DNA from: a virus
Direction: 5' to 3' (one strand)
Length of the DNA stretch: 33,600 nucleotides
IMG/VR virus record: IMGVR_UViG_3300022752_000229
Location: 1-33,600 of that record
The notes under the pieces are model-generated. The model did not search any database and was not told the origin of the DNA. It saw only the letters and a list, made by a program, of their open reading frames with translations. This document shows positions 10,612 to 31,280 of this stretch, in pieces. Numbering within the stretch: position 1 is the stretch's first letter; each line of letters begins with the position of its first letter. Made by a program: the position numbers and the translations under genes.

Positions 10612-12081
10612 ATGGCAAACAATTTCGGCCGCGTAAACGTCAGCATCACCGCCAGCACGGGCGGATTGACGGCTGGGCTGTCTAAGGCCGGGCGGCAGCT
10701 CAAGGGATTTCAGAAGAGCGTCGGCGGGCTGTCTGCCTTGAGCGGAACGCTTGGCGCAATGATGCCGATGCTGATGCCGGTGGTGGGCGGGTTCGCCACT
10801 CTGGCTGGAGCGGTTACCGCCCTGACTTCGGCGACCCGCTCTGCGGAAGCCCTGCACAATCTCTCGCAAGAGTTGGGCGTGGCGGCCGGCGAGTTGCAGG
10901 TCATGCAGCAGGTGGCTGCCGAGTCTGGCGTGAGCCAGCAGCTGCTCACCACGGGCCTGCGTCGTACCGCTCGAATGGTCGGCGAGTTGGCCCAAGGCAC
11001 GCCGGCTGCGGCCAAGGCGTTCGCTCAACTCGGCCTGACGATGGAAGATCTGGCTGGGCTCAGCACGACCGAGCAGTTGGCGCTGATTGCCGACCGCATT
11101 GCAGCCCTGCCGCCGCACATGCAGGCCGCAGCGGCAATCGACATCTTCGGCCGCAGCGGCCAGGGGATGCTTAACTTCCTGCGGCAAGGCGGCGACGCTT
11201 TCCGCGAGATGGACCGGCTGCTGACAGACCTGGGCGTGAAGATGAGCGGCCCGCAGGTTGCGGCCATCGAAGCCATGGGCGATGCGATTGGCCGGCTGGC
11301 ATTGCCGATGCAGGGATTTGTAATTCAGTTCCTGGCGGAACTCGCGCCGGCCATTACGGCTGCGTCCAACTTGATTGTTGATTTCTTTGCCAAGAACACT
11401 GCCGGCTGGACGATGGCAAAGACGCTTGCAGACGGGCTTGTCACCGGTATCCGCATGGTCGTTGGCGCGATGACGCTGCTGACAGGCATCTTCCAGGTGT
11501 TCATGGCCCTGGGCTCGCAGATCGGGCAGATGTTCAGCGAAGTGTTCAGCATCATCCTCGACGGCGTCACCAACGTCATGGAGGGCGTGGCCGGGCTTGC
11601 CGAGGCTGCCGGCTTCTCTGGGCTTGCAGAGTCGCTGGGGCAAGGTGCTCAAGGCACGGCACAACTGGCAGACGGTGCCAGGCAGATGGGCGAGATGTAC
11701 GGCCAGTCAGCCGCCGACACGTTCGGCCAGGCCGTTGAGAACATGGGAAGCCCGTTCGCTGCATTCGACCGTGAGTTTGCGTCCGCCCAGGCGGATGCCC
11801 AAAAGGCTGGCGCTGCAGGTGCGGGTGAGGCTGCCGGCCAAAGCATCGGTGCCGCCATCAAGGCTGCGTCTTCCGAGTTGAGCGCCCTGGTTGTCGGCTC
11901 ATCCGGCGGCGAGTCCTACCGCAACATGCTCGCTCGTGGCGGTGATCCTCGGCTTGGCGGGGCCGACGCTGCCAAGCAGACAGCCGACAACACCGAGCGG
12001 GCTGCCGACGGCATCGAAGACGTGGCCGCTGCCGTGCGTGACATTCCCGGCTTCGGCCAGGCTCAATTGGCGATGGTGTAA
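10612..12081 (+). CDS. Tape measure protein
   Basis: A 489-residue protein rich in Ala, Gly, Leu and Met with long predicted helices and a hydrophobic middle, ending in a helical tail. Residues 1-40 (ITASTGGLTAGLSKAGRQLKGFQ) match the usual start of phage tape measure proteins, and hydrophobic segments occur near residues 42-70 and 240-320. At about 1.5 angstrom per helical residue the tail would be around 70 nm, a short siphovirus tail. No peptidase or lysozyme domain is visible. Its position after the chaperone pair makes the call firm. Confidence 0.88.
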   Translation: MANNFGRVNVSITASTGGLTAGLSKAGRQLKGFQKSVGGLSALSGTLGAMMPMLMPVVGGFATLAGAVTALTSATRSAEALHNLSQELGVAAGELQVMQQVAAESGVSQQLLTTGLRRTARMVGELAQGTPAAAKAFAQLGLTMEDLAGLSTTEQLALIADRIAALPPHMQAAAAIDIFGRSGQGMLNFLRQGGDAFREMDRLLTDLGVKMSGPQVAAIEAMGDAIGRLALPMQGFVIQFLAELAPAITAASNLIVDFFAKNTAGWTMAKTLADGLVTGIRMVVGAMTLLTGIFQVFMALGSQIGQMFSEVFSIILDGVTNVMEGVAGLAEAAGFSGLAESLGQGAQGTAQLADGARQMGEMYGQSAADTFGQAVENMGSPFAAFDREFASAQADAQKAGAAGAGEAAGQSIGAAIKAASSELSALVVGSSGGESYRNMLARGGDPRLGGADAAKQTADNTERAADGIEDVAAAVRDIPGFGQAQLAMV

Positions 12082-17434: not shown

Positions 17435-18349
17435 TCAAGCCGCTGGACTATCGCCGTCCTGCGGCGGTTCGTTCAGGTCGAGAGGCGGCAGGTAGTCCAG
17501 GGCAGACTGCTGCCCAGTGATTGTGGTGTCTAGGTAGTGGTCGCGCGTGGTCTTCGGGTTGGCGTGCCCCAGGTGGTCCGTGGCGTCGCCGCCACCGGCC
17601 TTGACGTAGGAACCGCTGGCCTTGCGGATGGCATGGAAGCCCCTCGGTTTGACGCCGGCCCGCTGGCACAGCAGCCTGAGCGATTGGAATAGGCTGCTGG
17701 GCCGCCGGTGCTCGATCCAAGGCCAGACCAGATCGGCATCTGCCCTGCGGTAGCGACGCAGCTGCTGGGCCAGGTCGGGGTGAATGGCCCGCTGGATCGT
17801 CTCGATGCCGCCTTTGCGTGTCTCGCCGAGGAAGGTGATGCGGCAGGCTTCGAGATCCACCTCCGACCACCGCAGCCGCAGGTGGCTGCCGATACGCTCG
17901 CCGGTGTACCAGAGCGACTGAATCAACGTCATCCACAGCCATGGGGCTGGGACGCCACCGATTGAGCCGTGTGCCGTCCTCGCGGCTCTGACGAGTGAAG
18001 ACACCTCGGCGACCGTGTAGCCACGTGGGGGCCGCGTGGGAACCCGCAGGCGTGGCAGATCAGGGAACTCGGCAGCGATCCGCTTCCGGGCGGCGAAATT
18101 CCATAGGGCACTGATGTGGGCCTTGTCCTTCGCCACGCTGGCCGGCGAGCAGACTTTGCCGCGGTGCGGTGTGACGGCTCGCCAGCGTAGGAACTTGGCG
18201 ATTACCAGATCGTCAAAGTCGGTGACTGCCGGTTCCCGCTGCAGGAAGTCTCGCAGCCGGTCGATGCTGTGCCCAAACAGCACCACGCTCCTGGCCGACA
18301 GGTTGTGGAGCGGTGCGTACCGCTCGTGCAAAAGCTCTCGAATGGTCAT
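17435..18349 (-). CDS. int: Tyrosine recombinase (phage integrase)
   Basis: This 304-residue enzyme catalyses site-specific integration of the phage genome. The catalytic set is complete: R152 (TGERIGSHLRLRW), K179 (ETRKGG), H239 and R242 (HAIR), H262 (LGHANPKTTRDHY) and the nucleophile Y272. The N-terminal 100 residues form the core-binding SAM-like domain. The start ATG at 18349 has GGGAGG upstream; a longer frame from 18421 lacks this. It is read leftward, opposite to all large genes, and is separated by a 215-base control region from an excisionase-like gene. The attachment site cannot be placed from the window. Confidence 0.93.
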   Translation of the reverse strand: MTIRELLHERYAPLHNLSARSVVLFGHSIDRLRDFLQREPAVTDFDDLVIAKFLRWRAVTPHRGKVCSPASVAKDKAHISALWNFAARKRIAAEFPDLPRLRVPTRPPRGYTVAEVSSLVRAARTAHGSIGGVPAPWLWMTLIQSLWYTGERIGSHLRLRWSEVDLEACRITFLGETRKGGIETIQRAIHPDLAQQLRRYRRADADLVWPWIEHRRPSSLFQSLRLLCQRAGVKPRGFHAIRKASGSYVKAGGGDATDHLGHANPKTTRDHYLDTTITGQQSALDYLPPLDLNEPPQDGDSPAA

Positions 18350-18380
18350 CTCACTGCCTCCCGGTTGGTGTCTAGGCAGT

Positions 18381-18386
18381 AGTATA
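18381..18386 (-). promoter_or_regulatory. -10-like hexamer for the integrase unit
   Basis: On the minus strand TATACT occurs at 18386-18381, about 32 bases before the integrase start, a near match to the sigma-70 -10 consensus. No convincing -35 lies at 16-18 bases upstream. The assignment is tentative. Confidence 0.3.
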
Positions 18387-18440
18387 CAGAAGTCCAGGGT
18401 GTACGAGTCTTGAAGCCCCATGCCCTCCGCTACTACTTTT

Positions 18441-20056: not shown

Positions 20057-20071
20057 CCCGGTGGAACCGGG
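20057..20071. repeat. Short perfect hairpin before the RecT-like gene
   Basis: CCCGGT and ACCGGG pair over 6 bases with a 3-base loop in the gap 20011-20165. The gap is GC-rich and otherwise holds the translation signal at 20147-20157. It could be an RNA structure in the leader of the recombination gene; the stem alone is too short to decide. Confidence 0.3.
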
Positions 20072-20165
20072 GCAGCAAGGACGCACCAACAGCCCGCCGA
20101 GCAGGACGCGGAGCGGGATTTTCATAGGACATTCGCAATTCGCGAAACACGAAAGGACGCGCGAG

Positions 20166-21011
20166 ATGAGCACGGAGATCAGCACCCAGCGGGCCAGCGG
20201 CTTGGCCCTTCAATCGTTCGATGACGCCTACCGATTCTCCAAGATGGTGTCGGCGTCGGAGTTCGCCCCGAAGGATTTTCGCGGCAAGCCCGAGTCCTGC
20301 ATGCTGGCCATCCAGCACGGCAGCGAGGTGGGCCTGTCCCCGATGCAGTCGCTCCAGAGCATCGCCGTCATCAACGGACGGCCCACGATCTGGGGTGACG
20401 CTGCCCTGGCCCTGGTGCAGAGCAGCCCGGTCTGCGAGTACGTCAGGGAGTACACCGAGGGCGACGGCGAGCAGCTCGTCGCGGTGTGCGAGGCCAAGCG
20501 GCGAGGCTACCCGGCTCCGACCGTCGTGCGATTCGGCGTCGCCGACGCCAAAAAGGCCGGGCTGTGGGGCAAGAGCGGCCCGTGGCAGCAATATCCGGGG
20601 AGAATGATGGCCCTGCGAGCACGGGGCTTTGCACTTCGCAACGCCTTCGCCGACGCTTTGCGTGGGCTCATCACGGCCGAAGAAGCCCAGGACTATCCGG
20701 CGGTGGCCCCGACGCCAGAGCCGGCCCGCGAGCCTGTTGTGGTGCGGCCGAAGTTCAACATCGCTCCGGTTCCCGCAACCGACCCGGCCGCGAACGCGCG
20801 GCAAGCCATCCAGAAGACGAACAACCTGGACGTGCTGGCGGCGCTGCGTACTCGCGTGCATCAGCGGCACGCGGAGGGCACGTTCACTGAGTCCCTTCGG
20901 GATGAGCTGATCGGCCTGATCGACACCAAGTGCGAGTGGCTGGAGTCGGAGCCCGAGGACAACGGCCAGGAGTTCGAGCACGAAGCCGCCGGCACGGAGG
21001 CTGTGTCGTGA
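20166..21011 (+). CDS. RecT-like single-strand annealing protein
   Basis: The 281-residue product fits the RecT family of phage annealing proteins, which pair complementary single strands in homologous recombination. The diagnostic block is residues 52-84, with GSEVGLSPMQSLQ, then INGRPTIWGDAALALV, close to the RecT pattern of a Gly-Leu pair and the NGRP segment. The C-terminal third is variable, as in other members, and ends acidic. The ATG at 20166 has AAAGGA at 20152-20157; the longer frame from 20061 would include the upstream hairpin region. A partner nuclease is not adjacent, but a PD-(D/E)XK protein lies at 23778. Confidence 0.85.
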   Translation: MSTEISTQRASGLALQSFDDAYRFSKMVSASEFAPKDFRGKPESCMLAIQHGSEVGLSPMQSLQSIAVINGRPTIWGDAALALVQSSPVCEYVREYTEGDGEQLVAVCEAKRRGYPAPTVVRFGVADAKKAGLWGKSGPWQQYPGRMMALRARGFALRNAFADALRGLITAEEAQDYPAVAPTPEPAREPVVVRPKFNIAPVPATDPAANARQAIQKTNNLDVLAALRTRVHQRHAEGTFTESLRDELIGLIDTKCEWLESEPEDNGQEFEHEAAGTEAVS

Positions 21012-28162: not shown

Positions 28163-28939
28163 ATGATCTACTTCACTTCCGACCTACATCTCGGCCACGC
28201 GAACATAATCCGCCACTGTGGGCGGCCGTTCGACAACGTGACCGAGATGGACGCGACGATCCTGGCGGCGATCAATGCTGTGGTGCAGCCGGCCGACACG
28301 CTGTGGATTCTGGGGGACTTCGCGTACAGGGGCCGCAGCCCGCATTACTACCGCGACCAGATCGCCTGTCGAGATGTCCGGTTGCTGCTGGGCAACCATG
28401 ACAAGCGATCGCGGTGCGAAGGTGCGGGATTTGCGAGCGTCAACGAGGTGGCCGAGATCACTGTCGGCACGCAGCGAATCTGGATGAGCCACTACCCGCA
28501 CCGCTCCTGGCCCGCGTCGCACCGCGGTTCCTGGAATCTCTACGGCCACGTTCACGGCCGGCTGCGAGCGGATGACGCGCAGCTGCAGGCAAACGCCCTG
28601 GACGTTGGCGTGGACGATGACAGTGCCGCCGGCCCCGCTCCATGGCATCCATGGTCGATGGACGATCTAGCCCGCGTTCTGCCGCGAGTGCGGCCGGCGA
28701 CAGCCGAACAACACCGTGCCACGTTGCCTCCGGCGTGGATGGGGCGGCCCTACTGGGTCGATCCGCCGGGCGGCTGGCGATACGGATTCCCGCGACTGTT
28801 CGACCCGGCGAGGGACGGCAACGTCACGGAGTGGCTGATCCGACACGGCTACCCCGAGACGCTGGCTCGTCAGGGGCTGATTTGCACGATGACCAGCCAT
28901 GATCCAGACATGGAGGCTGACGATGCGACCGGATACTGA
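28163..28939 (+). CDS. Metallophosphoesterase with extra C-terminal domain
   Basis: The 258-residue product begins MIYFTSDLHLGHANI, the standard start for this family. Motifs are D7 and H9 (SDLHLGH), D52 (GDFAY), N78 and H79 (GNHDK), H110 (SHYPHRSW) and H129/H131 (GHVHG). Residues from about 185 onward form an extra part (RPYWVDPPGGWRYGFPRLFDPARDG, then WLIRHGYPETLARQGL) not found in simple members. GTG 28133 in the same frame is an alternative start adding 10 residues. Substrate unknown; it differs from the phosphoesterase at 15289 outside the motifs. Confidence 0.85.
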   Translation: MIYFTSDLHLGHANIIRHCGRPFDNVTEMDATILAAINAVVQPADTLWILGDFAYRGRSPHYYRDQIACRDVRLLLGNHDKRSRCEGAGFASVNEVAEITVGTQRIWMSHYPHRSWPASHRGSWNLYGHVHGRLRADDAQLQANALDVGVDDDSAAGPAPWHPWSMDDLARVLPRVRPATAEQHRATLPPAWMGRPYWVDPPGGWRYGFPRLFDPARDGNVTEWLIRHGYPETLARQGLICTMTSHDPDMEADDATGY

Positions 28940-29489
28940 CACATGCCGCGATCCAGAACTGCTGGCTGCGGAGGTGCGGAGATTGCGGGCGGTGATCGAC
29001 AGTGGCTCACTGACCGACGCGGAGCGACAGGCGATTTGGTGCGCTGCCGAATCGTATGGCGAGAACGACGACGACGCGGAGTGCGCGGCAATCGCTAATA
29101 CGCTGCGGGGGCTGCTGGATAAGCCGTCTCCTGCATCCGCTGGTTCTGTGGGGAGCGAACTATACGGCGGCGGCTTCAACAAGTGGCTTGCCAGCATCGG
29201 CAAGACGCGAGAGACGGCAACAGACGCAGATGACATCCAATGGTTAAAACTTGATAGGCACCGCCTAAACAACCTCTGGCGATGGATTCCGGTGTCGGAG
29301 CGGCTGCCGGATGAGGGTGGTGTGTTCCCCTACGTTCTAGCCAAGATCGGCGGAATGCACTATCCGGCAATAGCAAGGCGCAGCGAGTCAAGTTCAGGTT
29401 GGGTCGAACTGGGTGACCTGAGGATGTTTGCGGCATGGGAGATCACTCATTGGATGCCGCTCCCGGCTACACCAGAGGCCAGCAAGTAG
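28923..29489 (+). CDS. DUF551 protein, apparent two-part fusion
   Basis: The 188-residue product has an N-terminal helical part (about residues 1-67) with LTDAERQAIWCAAESYGEN and ECAAIANTLRGLLDK, and a C-terminal DUF551 domain with WIPVSERLPDEGG and the ending THWMPLP (about 115-184). Between them residues 68-75 (PSPASAGS) are encoded by the right arm of an attC-like repeat (29124-29147). This suggests that two small genes were joined at a repeat site. ATG 28923 has GGAGG at 28912-28916. The function of DUF551 is not known to me. Confidence 0.7.
   Translation: MRPDTDTCRDPELLAAEVRRLRAVIDSGSLTDAERQAIWCAAESYGENDDDAECAAIANTLRGLLDKPSPASAGSVGSELYGGGFNKWLASIGKTRETATDADDIQWLKLDRHRLNNLWRWIPVSERLPDEGGVFPYVLAKIGGMHYPAIARRSESSSGWVELGDLRMFAAWEITHWMPLPATPEASK
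29124..29147 (+). repeat. Orphan right arm of attC-like site (S0)
   Basis: These 24 bases are identical to the right arm of the site at 30839-30924 and end GGTTCT. They lie inside the coding region of the DUF551 gene. No convincing left arm was found close by; a weak match starts at 28954, just after the stop of the previous gene. The DUF551 part behind it may be an absorbed cassette. Confidence 0.55.
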
Positions 29490-29493
29490 GCAC

Positions 29494-29579
29494 AGAACAC
29501 GGAACATCAACAGCCGCGAACGAAGGAGGCGGCAAGCATGAACGATACGAATGAGCGGTCTGTTGCATCGCCTGGTTCT
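29494..29579 (+). repeat. attC-like site S1
   Basis: The left arm 29494-29517 starts AGAAC and the right arm 29555-29579 ends GTTCT. The inner blocks CAACAG/CTGTTG and CCGC/GCGG pair, and T29559 and C29566 in the right arm are unpaired. It starts 4 bases after the stop of the DUF551 gene and contains the ribosome-binding site and ATG of the next gene in its loop. Confidence 0.6.
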
Positions 29580-29807
29580 ACTGGTCGCTGCCTACTGGTG
29601 CTGCGAGCACTTCTTGCCATTGGCTGCACTTCGCCAAGCGTCAACAGCCCGACTAGCCCAACTCCTTATTCGCAATATCCGAAACTCTCGGCCCATTGCC
29701 GCACATGCAAACAGTGCGCAAGCCCAATGAGCGAAAGCGGCGAGGAGCAAAGCCTGTGCGATGAAGGGTTTCGATTGCTGCAGGATGATCTACGACCGGG
29801 CAAATAA
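29538..29807 (+). CDS. Small Cys-containing protein in cassette 1, unknown
   Basis: The 89-residue product has AAGGAGG at 29523-29529 before ATG 29538. The residues SVASPGS are encoded by the right arm of site S1. A hydrophobic stretch (LLVLRALLAIGC) is followed by a Ser/Pro-rich linker and a small Cys cluster (CRTCKQC). The ending CDEGFRLLQDDLRPG is a plausible domain end. No family is recognised, and part of the N-terminus may be non-functional if the repeat was inserted into the gene. Confidence 0.45.
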   Translation: MNDTNERSVASPGSTGRCLLVLRALLAIGCTSPSVNSPTSPTPYSQYPKLSAHCRTCKQCASPMSESGEEQSLCDEGFRLLQDDLRPGK

Positions 29808-29892
29808 GACGCCGCACCGGCCGAACGTCAGCGCTTCATGTTCTGGCTAGCGAATAGCGGTAGGCCGGTGCGGCGCGATCTAAACTCACAGT

Positions 29893-29944
29893 AGAACACG
29901 CAGGATAAGCGGCGGCTCCGCCGTCCGCTTCATCCGCTGGTTCT
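29893..29944 (+). repeat. attC-like site S2 (compact hairpin)
   Basis: The left arm 29893-29916 and right arm 29920-29944 meet across a 3-base loop. Pairs are AGAAC/GTTCT, GGAT/ATCC, AAGCGG/CCGCTT and CGGC/GCCG, with T29924 and C29931 unpaired. It lies in the 248-base gap 29808-30055, which has no other gene. Confidence 0.7.
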
Positions 29945-29960
29945 GTTTCAGGCCACATTC

Positions 29961-30006
29961 GTTGACGCTGATTGACGCTGGTTGAATCTTTGGCGAACGA
30001 TTGACG
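29961..30006 (+). repeat. Short direct repeats with TTGACG
   Basis: GTTGACGCTG at 29961-29970, ATTGACGCTG at 29971-29980 and a further TTGACG at 30001-30006 are tandem or near-tandem. TTGACG resembles a -35 hexamer, but no -10 of quality follows at the right distance. They lie between site S2 and the HTH gene and may be regulator binding sites. Confidence 0.35.
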
Positions 30007-30055
30007 GGCCGCTACGTTGCGACAGGATTCACGCAACACCAAAGGAGACAATGCG

Positions 30056-30400
30056 ATGGAACGACTGATGACCAGGAAGCAGGCGGCCGAGTACCTTGGG
30101 TTTGCACCGCAGACCCTCGCCCGCTACGCATGGCTTCGCAAGGGGCCGCAAACGACTAAGCTCGGGAGGTCTGTGAGGTACAAGCTGGAAGACCTCGAGG
30201 CGTGGATCGCCGAGCAGGGTCGAGAGCGCCCCGTGCAACACCGCAAGCCGGAGCGGTTTCCGATTTGCAGTGGCGTCGTCATTGACGGCGAGCGGTACTA
30301 CAGGGCCGAAGACGTTTTGGAGGCAGCCCGCCAGATCGGGATGGACATTCCGATCATGTCGTTTCGTCACGACGGACTGCTCGCTACGGCCGAGGGTTAG
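30056..30400 (+). CDS. Excisionase/MerR-like HTH protein in cassette 2
   Basis: The 114-residue product starts with the compact winged-helix HTH of excisionase or AlpA-like regulators (MTRKQAAEYLGFAPQTLARYAWLRKGPQTTKLGRSVRYKLEDLEAWI). The C-terminal half, with YYRAEDVLEAARQIG, is a separate small part. AAAGGAG at 30041-30047 precedes ATG 30056. Its stop is 4 bases before the left arm of site S3, as for cassette genes. It is a second candidate for the phage excisionase. Confidence 0.75.
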   Translation: MERLMTRKQAAEYLGFAPQTLARYAWLRKGPQTTKLGRSVRYKLEDLEAWIAEQGRERPVQHRKPERFPICSGVVIDGERYYRAEDVLEAARQIGMDIPIMSFRHDGLLATAEG

Positions 30401-30404
30401 AAAC

Positions 30405-30489
30405 AGAACGACAAGGATAAGCGGCATCGCCGCGAGGATTCACAATCACACAGGAGGTAGAGGCGATGTCCGCTTCATCCGCTGGTTCT
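30405..30489 (+). repeat. attC-like site S3
   Basis: The left arm 30405-30430 and right arm 30463-30489 pair through AGAAC/GTTCT, GGAT/ATCC, AAGCGG/CCGCTT and CATCGC/GCGATG, with T30469 and C30476 unpaired. The loop holds AGGAGG for the next gene and the right arm contains its ATG. Confidence 0.7.
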
Positions 30490-30837
30490 GCTGACCGCAG
30501 CGACCTAATCGAGTTCGGCTTTGGGCGATTTGAGCCACGCTTGGAGGTGCATCGCTTTGAGGGGCTGATGTATTTCGGGCAGGTGACAGTACCGGCCGAC
30601 GATCACGTTTCATGGCTGCTGGAACGCGAGATCGCGAGATCCGGCCTTCACGCATACTGGGTCAAGTTGATGCACGAGAACATCGAGGCTATGCCAGAGG
30701 ACTCGCAGATATCGGGACCGTATGGCATGTCGTGGACCAGGTGCCCGGAGGCAATAGGCGAACTGGCCCTTGACATGCTCGTGACCGTTGTTCGCGAGGC
30801 TATGGGGAGAATCATTCCGACAGTGACGCTCACATAG
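30466..30837 (+). CDS. Cassette 3 protein, unknown
   Basis: The 123-residue product starts at ATG 30466, and its residues 2-8 (SASSAGS) are encoded by the right arm of site S3. AGGAGG lies in the loop upstream. The body is mixed alpha/beta with VPADDHVSWLLEREI and CPEAIGELALDMLV. No family is recognised. The stop TAG at 30835-30837 is one base before the left arm of site S4. Confidence 0.55.
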   Translation: MSASSAGSADRSDLIEFGFGRFEPRLEVHRFEGLMYFGQVTVPADDHVSWLLEREIARSGLHAYWVKLMHENIEAMPEDSQISGPYGMSWTRCPEAIGELALDMLVTVVREAMGRIIPTVTLT

Positions 30838-30838
30838 C

Positions 30839-30924
30839 AGAACACGCAGGATCAGGAGCGGCGAACTATGAGCGACGACAACACGCAGGAGGGTGCCGAG
30901 CCGTCTCCTGCATCCGCTGGTTCT
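30839..30924 (+). repeat. attC-like site S4
   Basis: The left arm 30839-30862 and right arm 30901-30924 pair through AGAAC/GTTCT, GGAT/ATCC, CAGGAG/CTCCTG and CGG/CCG, with T30904 and C30911 unpaired. The middle block differs from S2 and S3 on both arms in a compensating way. The right arm is identical to S0. Confidence 0.7.
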
Positions 30925-30969
30925 GATTTTCGGGTGTTATCAAAACGATGCTGGTCGGCGTATAGATAG
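30868..30969 (+). CDS. Short frame across site S4, doubtful gene
   Basis: ATG 30868 opens 33 codons that read through the right arm (PSPASAGS) and stop 15 bases before the next gene. AGGAG is about 10 bases upstream. It resembles the beginning of the other cassette genes but carries no domain behind it, so it may be a degraded start or a leader frame. Confidence 0.3.
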   Translation: MSDDNTQEGAEPSPASAGSDFRVLSKRCWSAYR

Positions 30970-30984
30970 GTGGAGGTACTCAGC

Positions 30985-31221
30985 ATGAACAAAGATCAAA
31001 TCGACTACGACGACCTTATTCGCATCCGCGCTATCATTTCCTGCCTTACTTCAGACCTGTCGGAGATTCTCAGCGACGGCTTGCCGAAGCCACCCAAGAG
31101 GGGCCGCAGTAAACAGGATTGGATCGACGCAATGAGTGCGTATGAGGAATGGTATGAGGTGCGAGGGAACAGCCTCAAGGCGGCGGAAGAGTTCCTGAAG
31201 CAAACCGAAGGCTGGGTGTAG
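30985..31221 (+). CDS. Cassette 4 protein, unknown
   Basis: The 78-residue product starts at ATG 30985 with GGAGG at 30972-30976. It is mostly helical and acidic (IDYDDLIRIRAIISCLTSDLSEIL), with a basic middle (PKPPKRGRSKQDW) and a second helix (YEEWYEVRGNSLKAAEEFL). No family is recognised. The stop at 31221 is followed 8 bases later by AGAAC, the left part of site S5. Confidence 0.55.
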   Translation: MNKDQIDYDDLIRIRAIISCLTSDLSEILSDGLPKPPKRGRSKQDWIDAMSAYEEWYEVRGNSLKAAEEFLKQTEGWV

Positions 31222-31229
31222 GGATCATC

Positions 31230-31264
31230 AGAACCAGAATTAGGCGGCGAACTGGCAGCCTAAT
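31230..31264 (+). repeat. Partial attC-like site S5 (array end)
   Basis: AGAACCAG starts at 31230, 8 bases after a stop, as in S1-S4. ATTAGGC at 31239-31245 pairs with GCCTAAT at 31258-31264, but no GTTCT right end follows. It may be a decayed terminal site. No further copies were seen downstream. Confidence 0.4.
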
Positions 31265-31280
31265 CCGGGTGAGACCTACG

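Follow-up and report, generated by a model that had tools for sequence, protein, structure and literature searches.

Integrons are usually viewed as bacterial gene-capture devices, and phage-borne clusters of attC sites as occasional stowaways. In class 1 and class 2 integron cassettes the attC lies behind the gene on one strand, and its R box fits GTTRRRY. This arrangement was seen in aadA1 on plasmid R721, used as a canonical control, where gene and attC share one strand with the attC behind the gene and where direct comparison placed the bulges in the arm next to the gene's end. The integrase IntI recombines the folded bottom strand of attC, with replication resolving the junction, and attC models for planctomycetes already exist (PMC8352920). 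In varied phages, 17 attC clusters without intI (CALINs) have been described, and IntI1 recombined five of the six sites tested from them (PMC9892861).

Here an array of this kind was analyzed in the window, a stretch of 33,600 nucleotides that makes up an entire 33.6-kb viral record. The window encodes a terminase, a portal, a major capsid protein and a tape-measure protein, together with a dnaN-type sliding clamp, a DNA methyltransferase, a RecT-family protein (20061–21011) and RusA. The array is flanked by a phosphoesterase gene, which lies downstream of dnaN, and by rusA; all of these are on the plus strand. A tyrosine recombinase of the phage-integrase type (17435–18421, minus strand) suggests a temperate phage; neither a tRNA gene nor an attachment site was found within the window. 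The terminase shared at best about 44% identity with relatives from cultured phages, a comparison indicating no host, and planctomycete prophage terminases reached 50% identity, the prophages in question carrying no array. At the DNA level the array matched nothing in cultured phages or plasmids, and an Rfam scan of the window gave no match to any curated RNA family. Based on the site type, the cassettes shared by related phages and the 50% identity of the planctomycete prophage terminases, the tailed phage that carries the array most likely has a planctomycete host.

The first-pass annotation, made from the sequence of the window, had proposed an integron-like cassette array bounded by four sites, S1–S4, each beginning with AGAAC and ending with GTTCT. 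The ends of the sites were confirmed, as were the unpaired spacer, the stem and the two extra bases of the right arm (a C and a T, with six bases between them), and the six-base blocks listed in Table 1 each face their exact complement. The overall organization is that of attC sites, with R boxes, an unpaired spacer, an L stem, a variable tip and bulged bases in one arm; with four good sites, one worn site and no IntI, the array also corresponds to a CALIN as defined by at least two attC sites and no nearby intI. When S2 was compared as its reverse complement with class 1/2 sites such as the aadA1 attC, the spacing was the same (AAC, 8 nt, bulge, 6 bp, bulge), but the outer bulge on the recombining strand is a G in class 1/2 attC sites and a C in the phage sites, and a covariance model built from phage sites only (R1, 35 family members) did not match the aadA1 attC. 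S1–S4 scored 60–84 bits in R1, values that are not independent since all four sites are among its 35 training members. The window contains four exact copies of the 15-base core of the right arm, whereas 0.12 copies would be expected with up to two mismatches allowed. Folding of the bottom strand had been suggested as a check; as DNA, on either strand, S2 (z about −5.0) and S3 (z about −3.5) folded clearly better than shuffles, S4 was borderline and S1 was not unusual (z 0.01), so that single-site energies are weaker evidence than covariation across the family.

The array extends further than first described, with the worn site S0 on its left and a closing box on its right, the latter being the last left box, which closes cassette 4. 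S0 is located inside the DUF551 ORF, and its right arm is identical to that of S4 over 27 bases. This ORF (28899–29489, 196 aa) reads through S0 and leaves the leader motif PSPASAGS in the middle of the protein, indicating that a DUF551-type cassette gene has been fused in frame to an upstream coding sequence. In cassette 4, the ORF starting in S4 (30868–30969) stops just ahead of the start of the next gene, and this leader may be an upstream ORF rather than an N-terminal leader.

Table 1. Sites, cassettes and array end identified in the window, with positions on the window.
Feature	Position	Strand	Description
S0, worn attC-like site	29062–29147	+	Right arm intact, left arm degraded; R1 model E 0.0012
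S1, attC-type site, 86 nt, block CAACAG	29494–29579	+	Holds start codon of ORF 29538–29807
S2, attC-type site, 52 nt, block AAGCGG	29893–29944	+	Without start codon
S3, attC-type site, 85 nt, block AAGCGG	30405–30489	+	Holds start codon of ORF 30466–30837
S4, attC-type site, 86 nt, block CAGGAG	30839–30924	+	Holds ATG 30868 of 33-codon leader ORF
Cassette 0: S0 right half and DUF551 part of ORF 28899–29489	29066–29497	+	Ends complementary over 8 bases (S0 right end with S1 left end); DUF551 match
Cassette 1: S1 body and ORF 29538–29807 (89 aa, no family match), start in S1	29498–29896	+	End complementarity 9
Cassette 2: S2 body and HTH_17 gene (about 30056–30400), own start codon	29897–30408	+	End complementarity 10; Pfam HTH_17
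Cassette 3: S3 body and ORF 30466–30837 (123 aa, no family match), start in S3	30409–30842	+	End complementarity 8
Cassette 4: S4 body and ORF about 30985–31221 (no family match)	30843–31233	+	End complementarity 8, with box 31230
Array end: last left box AGAAC (31230–31234), then hairpin CAGAATTAGGCGG...CAGCCTAAT	31230–31275	+	Without right box

The analysis was extended to other viral sequences, in which a structural search detected 424 sites in 148 loci (386 sites in one count) and none in reversed sequence; some of these viral records are long or short fragments. A two-arm pattern, which proved specific, had retrieved 37 viral stretches and a wider pattern 113. Common site lengths were 86, 85, 52 and 45 nt, and the most site-rich locus had 15 sites. 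In an alignment of 34 distinct sites, 93.4% of cells were paired and 85 cells showed a double change, as compared with 25 in shuffles, and 12 of the 19 base pairs changed on both sides, the shuffled and slid controls all being far lower. The bulged C was present in 290 and the bulged T in 284 of 299 unique sites. As proposed from the window, the outer box departs from GTTRRRY; only GTT is conserved, with 237 of the 299 unique sites ending in GTTCT and with GTTAT, GTTCG and GTTAG as further variants. The array-bearing phages are diverse, a recognizable related terminase (38–79% identity) being found in 24 of 41 tested records, and the place of the array is recurrent: about 30 loci have dnaN on its upstream side, and rusA or structural genes follow it. 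Two other scans were set aside: a 15-base pattern gave mostly chance matches in viral contigs, and a short-form scan of 85,000 species gave 20 matches, none of them a convincing site, its gap range falling below the 86-nt form and its fixed letters being too strict, so that it missed host relatives found later by the model. In one pair of loci (L058 and L136), a single gene (98.5% identity) is associated with a 45-nt and an 84-nt site having the same stems, as if the tip had been lost or gained.

In 202 gene segments, the two segment ends (the right end of one site and the left end of the site that follows) were complementary in 94, 97, 94, 85 and 73% of cases at positions 4–8, while the two arms within one site showed complementarity at the same positions at the level of shuffles. 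In the five cassettes of the window, end complementarity ran over 8–10 bases versus 5–6 within a site. This is expected if a gene segment is excised as a circle, its joined ends forming one attC, and a plain repeat would have no reason to show it; the sites standing in the array are then hybrids of neighboring cassettes, in host arrays as in phages. The exchange of cassettes was examined in 21 pairs of gene segments that shared at least 90% identity but had changed neighbors; neither the pairs nor the contigs are all independent. The upstream stem had been retained in 16 of these pairs and the downstream one in 4, the random rate being 0.21; an earlier test on 14 pairs gave no clear result, which was obtained with a better site list. 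The moving unit therefore usually comprises an attC and the gene behind it. Stems can also change by other means without the gene, as indicated by the HTH gene of the window, which is 96% identical in phage contig L220 and is bounded there by different sites on both sides; in hosts, this gene gave only distant domain matches and the cassette itself was not found. A fixed gene order among related phages, which would have spoken against cassettes, was not seen, since cassettes do exchange between them.

The phage arrays differ from canonical ones in the orientation of their genes. The strand of the model match was that of the gene in all 175 clear phage cassettes, the opposite of the canonical arrangement, whereas in host arrays the gene was on the opposite strand in 59 of 71 cases and on the same strand in 12. 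These counts were based on a codon score trained on window genes, which left many AT-rich host cassettes unclear, and were preferred to counts based on the longest ORF, which are noisy in G+C-rich DNA; in record L283, the ORF list has every array gene on the other strand. Read in this way, the attCs are inverted relative to the phage genes and stand in front of the gene, often carrying its start codon. An in-frame start codon, from which the reading frame continues into the next gene for about 35 codons or more, was present in 182 of 223 unique long sites (173 in one frame), and none of the 111 short sites contained an ATG. The leaders encoded by long sites end in motifs such as PSPASAGS, and the stop codon of a gene is usually at the next left box or immediately ahead of it. 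Being inverted with respect to attI and attC, the genes lie on the strand of the phage operon, running from the dnaN side to the rusA side, and not on the strand of an integron promoter.

At 62 loci, a left box comes after the last gene and leads into a sequence belonging to one of a few recurring types, the commonest in phages being CAGTGTTTCTGCGGANCC..ATAAC. A motif for this sequence was placed right of the array on the same strand in 50 cases, left of it in two and on the opposite strand in three. A similar sequence occupies the same place beside the host IntI in five genomes (G274, G244, G852, G1011 and G1083), with alignment scores for G274 and G244 at or just above the best shuffles. The common phage array end is likely to be homologous to attI. 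Both this attI-like end and the inverted attCs in front of genes had been missed in the first-pass annotation. The end of the window array is a hairpin variant and not the common attI-like form, with similar hairpin ends in L203, L211 and L231. This second type, a short hairpin (e.g. ATTAGGC...GCCTAAT), was observed at 31235–31275 of the window, in these three loci and in L141 and L144, and the array ends of L132 and L228 look intermediate between the two types.

Running R1 on whole genomes showed matches in 48 of 392 Planctomycetota as compared with 4 of 299 Pseudomonadota (Fisher p 7e-9). In one planctomycete order, the phylum of which is known from record L159, a Phycisphaerales genome, 122 of 327 genomes gave a match. 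Many of these matches form arrays, with more than 20 sites in L283. Full-length IntI genes adjoin such arrays in several planctomycete genomes, and an IntI above the curated cut-off was present in all eight genomes of that order that were checked. These chromosomal integrons share with the phage arrays the site model, the stem motifs, the cassette-end rule, an attI-like sequence at the corresponding array end and some of the cassettes; their R boxes are also similar, being mostly GTTCG, GTTAT and GTTCT in the host order, so that a box not fitting GTTRRRY is a trait of the host group too. They differ in having IntI and in that the gene is nearly always opposite to the model match, while phage arrays lack IntI and have the gene on the same strand. 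Cassette-end complementarity, the movement of genes with their own upstream site, the kinship with attCs beside true IntI genes and the cassettes found in host arrays show the phage sites to be attC sites of the planctomycete integron type.

The overlap between phages and hosts includes whole cassettes. Arrays of host genome G800 contain full-length matches to two phage cassette proteins (86 and 89%), and at the DNA level the match spanned attC and gene at roughly 85–90% and ended at the boxes. In G800, the phage-type cassettes adjoin canonical ones and have retained the phage orientation; as a further observation, one of its arrays (L374, reverse complement, 11267–11949) has two consecutive phage-type cassettes whose sites are short (45 and 47 nt), amid canonical cassettes with long sites. 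The G800 assembly is a draft in which the arrays are at the ends of contigs and IntI is on different ones, so that array and IntI are presumed to be linked. Viruses and hosts appear, from these shared cassettes, to trade genes via the gene-capture machinery of the host. A search for an IntI-like gene in the host had been proposed, and IntI was found beside planctomycete arrays, none of them linked to the host of the window itself. Site structure, cassette-end complementarity, exchange between phages and cassettes held in common with planctomycete arrays together support the proposal of an integron-like cassette array in a phage.

That no integron integrase is in view holds for the phages examined: none of 73 phage records, many of which are fragments, contained an intI gene above the TIGR02249 cut-off for IntI. 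The array, which lacks an integrase gene, is most likely recombined in trans by a host IntI and read from phage transcription. Each cassette consists of an attC body followed by one small gene and would be cut at AA^C of the left box, equivalent to G^TT of the R' box in the canonical reading. Pairing of the two ends in the circular cassette would give a complete attC hairpin its outer box. The sites would recombine with one another and, in many phages, with the attI-like sequence that closes the array on its right, the host IntI acting in trans on both, presumably during infection or prophage replication. The site orientation required by IntI would be kept, while the inverted genes are on the strand of phage transcription. 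The attC is thus at the 5' end of the gene, and in its long forms it provides the start codon together with an N-terminal leader. At the five positions following the left box, the bases differ widely even among near-identical cassettes, a variation not accounted for by a simple cut at AA^C.

Other explanations for the arrays were considered. The phage's own tyrosine recombinase could move the cassettes by acting on attC-like hairpins, making the host IntI unnecessary, and one such enzyme is indeed encoded in 25 of 41 array-bearing records, that of the window matching phage integrases. This is unlikely, because these genes are away from the array, score as ordinary phage integrases without reaching the IntI cut-off and are absent from 16 of the 41 records (though many are fragments), and because the cassettes common to phage and host integrons point to a host enzyme. 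Cassettes could also be shuffled by homologous recombination between similar sites, aided by RecT, the hairpins serving another purpose such as translation control. Such a process would fit the RecT-family protein of the window, right arms that are identical over up to 27 bases, the start codons within hairpins and the occasional change of stems independently of the gene. It would leave unexplained why segment ends are complementary while the arms of one site are not, why a stem travels only with its downstream gene, and why architecture is shared with IntI-bearing host arrays and an attI-like end is present; we regard it as quite improbable.

It could further be argued, given sites of a bacterial integron type and records that are in some cases long or short fragments, that the contigs are pieces of bacterial integrons or genomes misclassed as viral. 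The virion and packaging genes of the window, the related terminases in 24 of 41 records, the repeated location of arrays near dnaN, rusA and structural genes, and a gene orientation unlike that of bacterial arrays in every clear case make this very improbable. Repeats of the MITE or REP type spreading without genes had been raised from the outset as a reading that would undo the cassette proposal, and the sites could likewise be plain regulatory hairpins that mobilize nothing; each is a short, imperfect palindrome present in several copies, and ribosome-binding and start signals occur in some, as such elements might be expected to show. This reading was rejected, and is extremely improbable, since the sites bound single exchanged genes, site and gene moving together as units, obey the cassette-end rule in 202 segments and occur with their genes as whole units in host integrons.

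The first-pass annotation had suggested a divergent or undescribed cassette system, which holds only in part: the sites are attCs of the planctomycete type, and phage CALINs have already been reported (PMC9892861). In common with those CALINs, the arrays described here are attC arrays without intI in phage genomes; they differ in forming one widespread family in phages tied to Planctomycetota, with uniformly inverted genes, start codons in attC, attI-like ends and cassettes common with host integrons. What is new is the arrangement, in which genes are reversed with respect to canonical cassettes (175:0), the attC precedes the gene and most long attCs contain a start codon and a short leader. 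In the open-access literature, neither uniformly inverted cassettes nor attC-borne start codons were found described, which is weak evidence of absence. A widespread group of phages thus seems to have an integron device built into its genome plan. On balance, and on genomic comparison, we lean slightly towards a broader view in which a large group of planctomycete phages would keep an intI-less integron platform, made up of an attI-like site and an attC array, and a dedicated pool of inverted cassettes with attC as translation start, and would borrow the host IntI during infection, to the presumed benefit of the phage, so as to shuffle accessory genes, DNA methyltransferases among them, and exchange them with the host integron. 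The site family also ties many unassigned viral contigs to planctomycete hosts, and the origin of cassettes, the trade between phage and chromosomal integrons in nature and the functions of small cassette genes could be tested in this system.

The 268 cassettes with ORFs of at least 50 codons formed 103 clusters, the largest having 124 members. The longest member of this cluster and the gene of cassette 0 in the window are both of the DUF551 type. Few Pfam matches were obtained for 95 representatives, these being to DNA methylases, HNH, HTH_17, DUF551 and others, and the top matches in a defence library were mostly methyltransferases; an anti-restriction role for some cassette genes is a reasonable guess. 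The longest member of the 124-member family shows leader-like motifs and a C-terminal region ending in HWMPLPAPPSDGK, as in DUF551 proteins.
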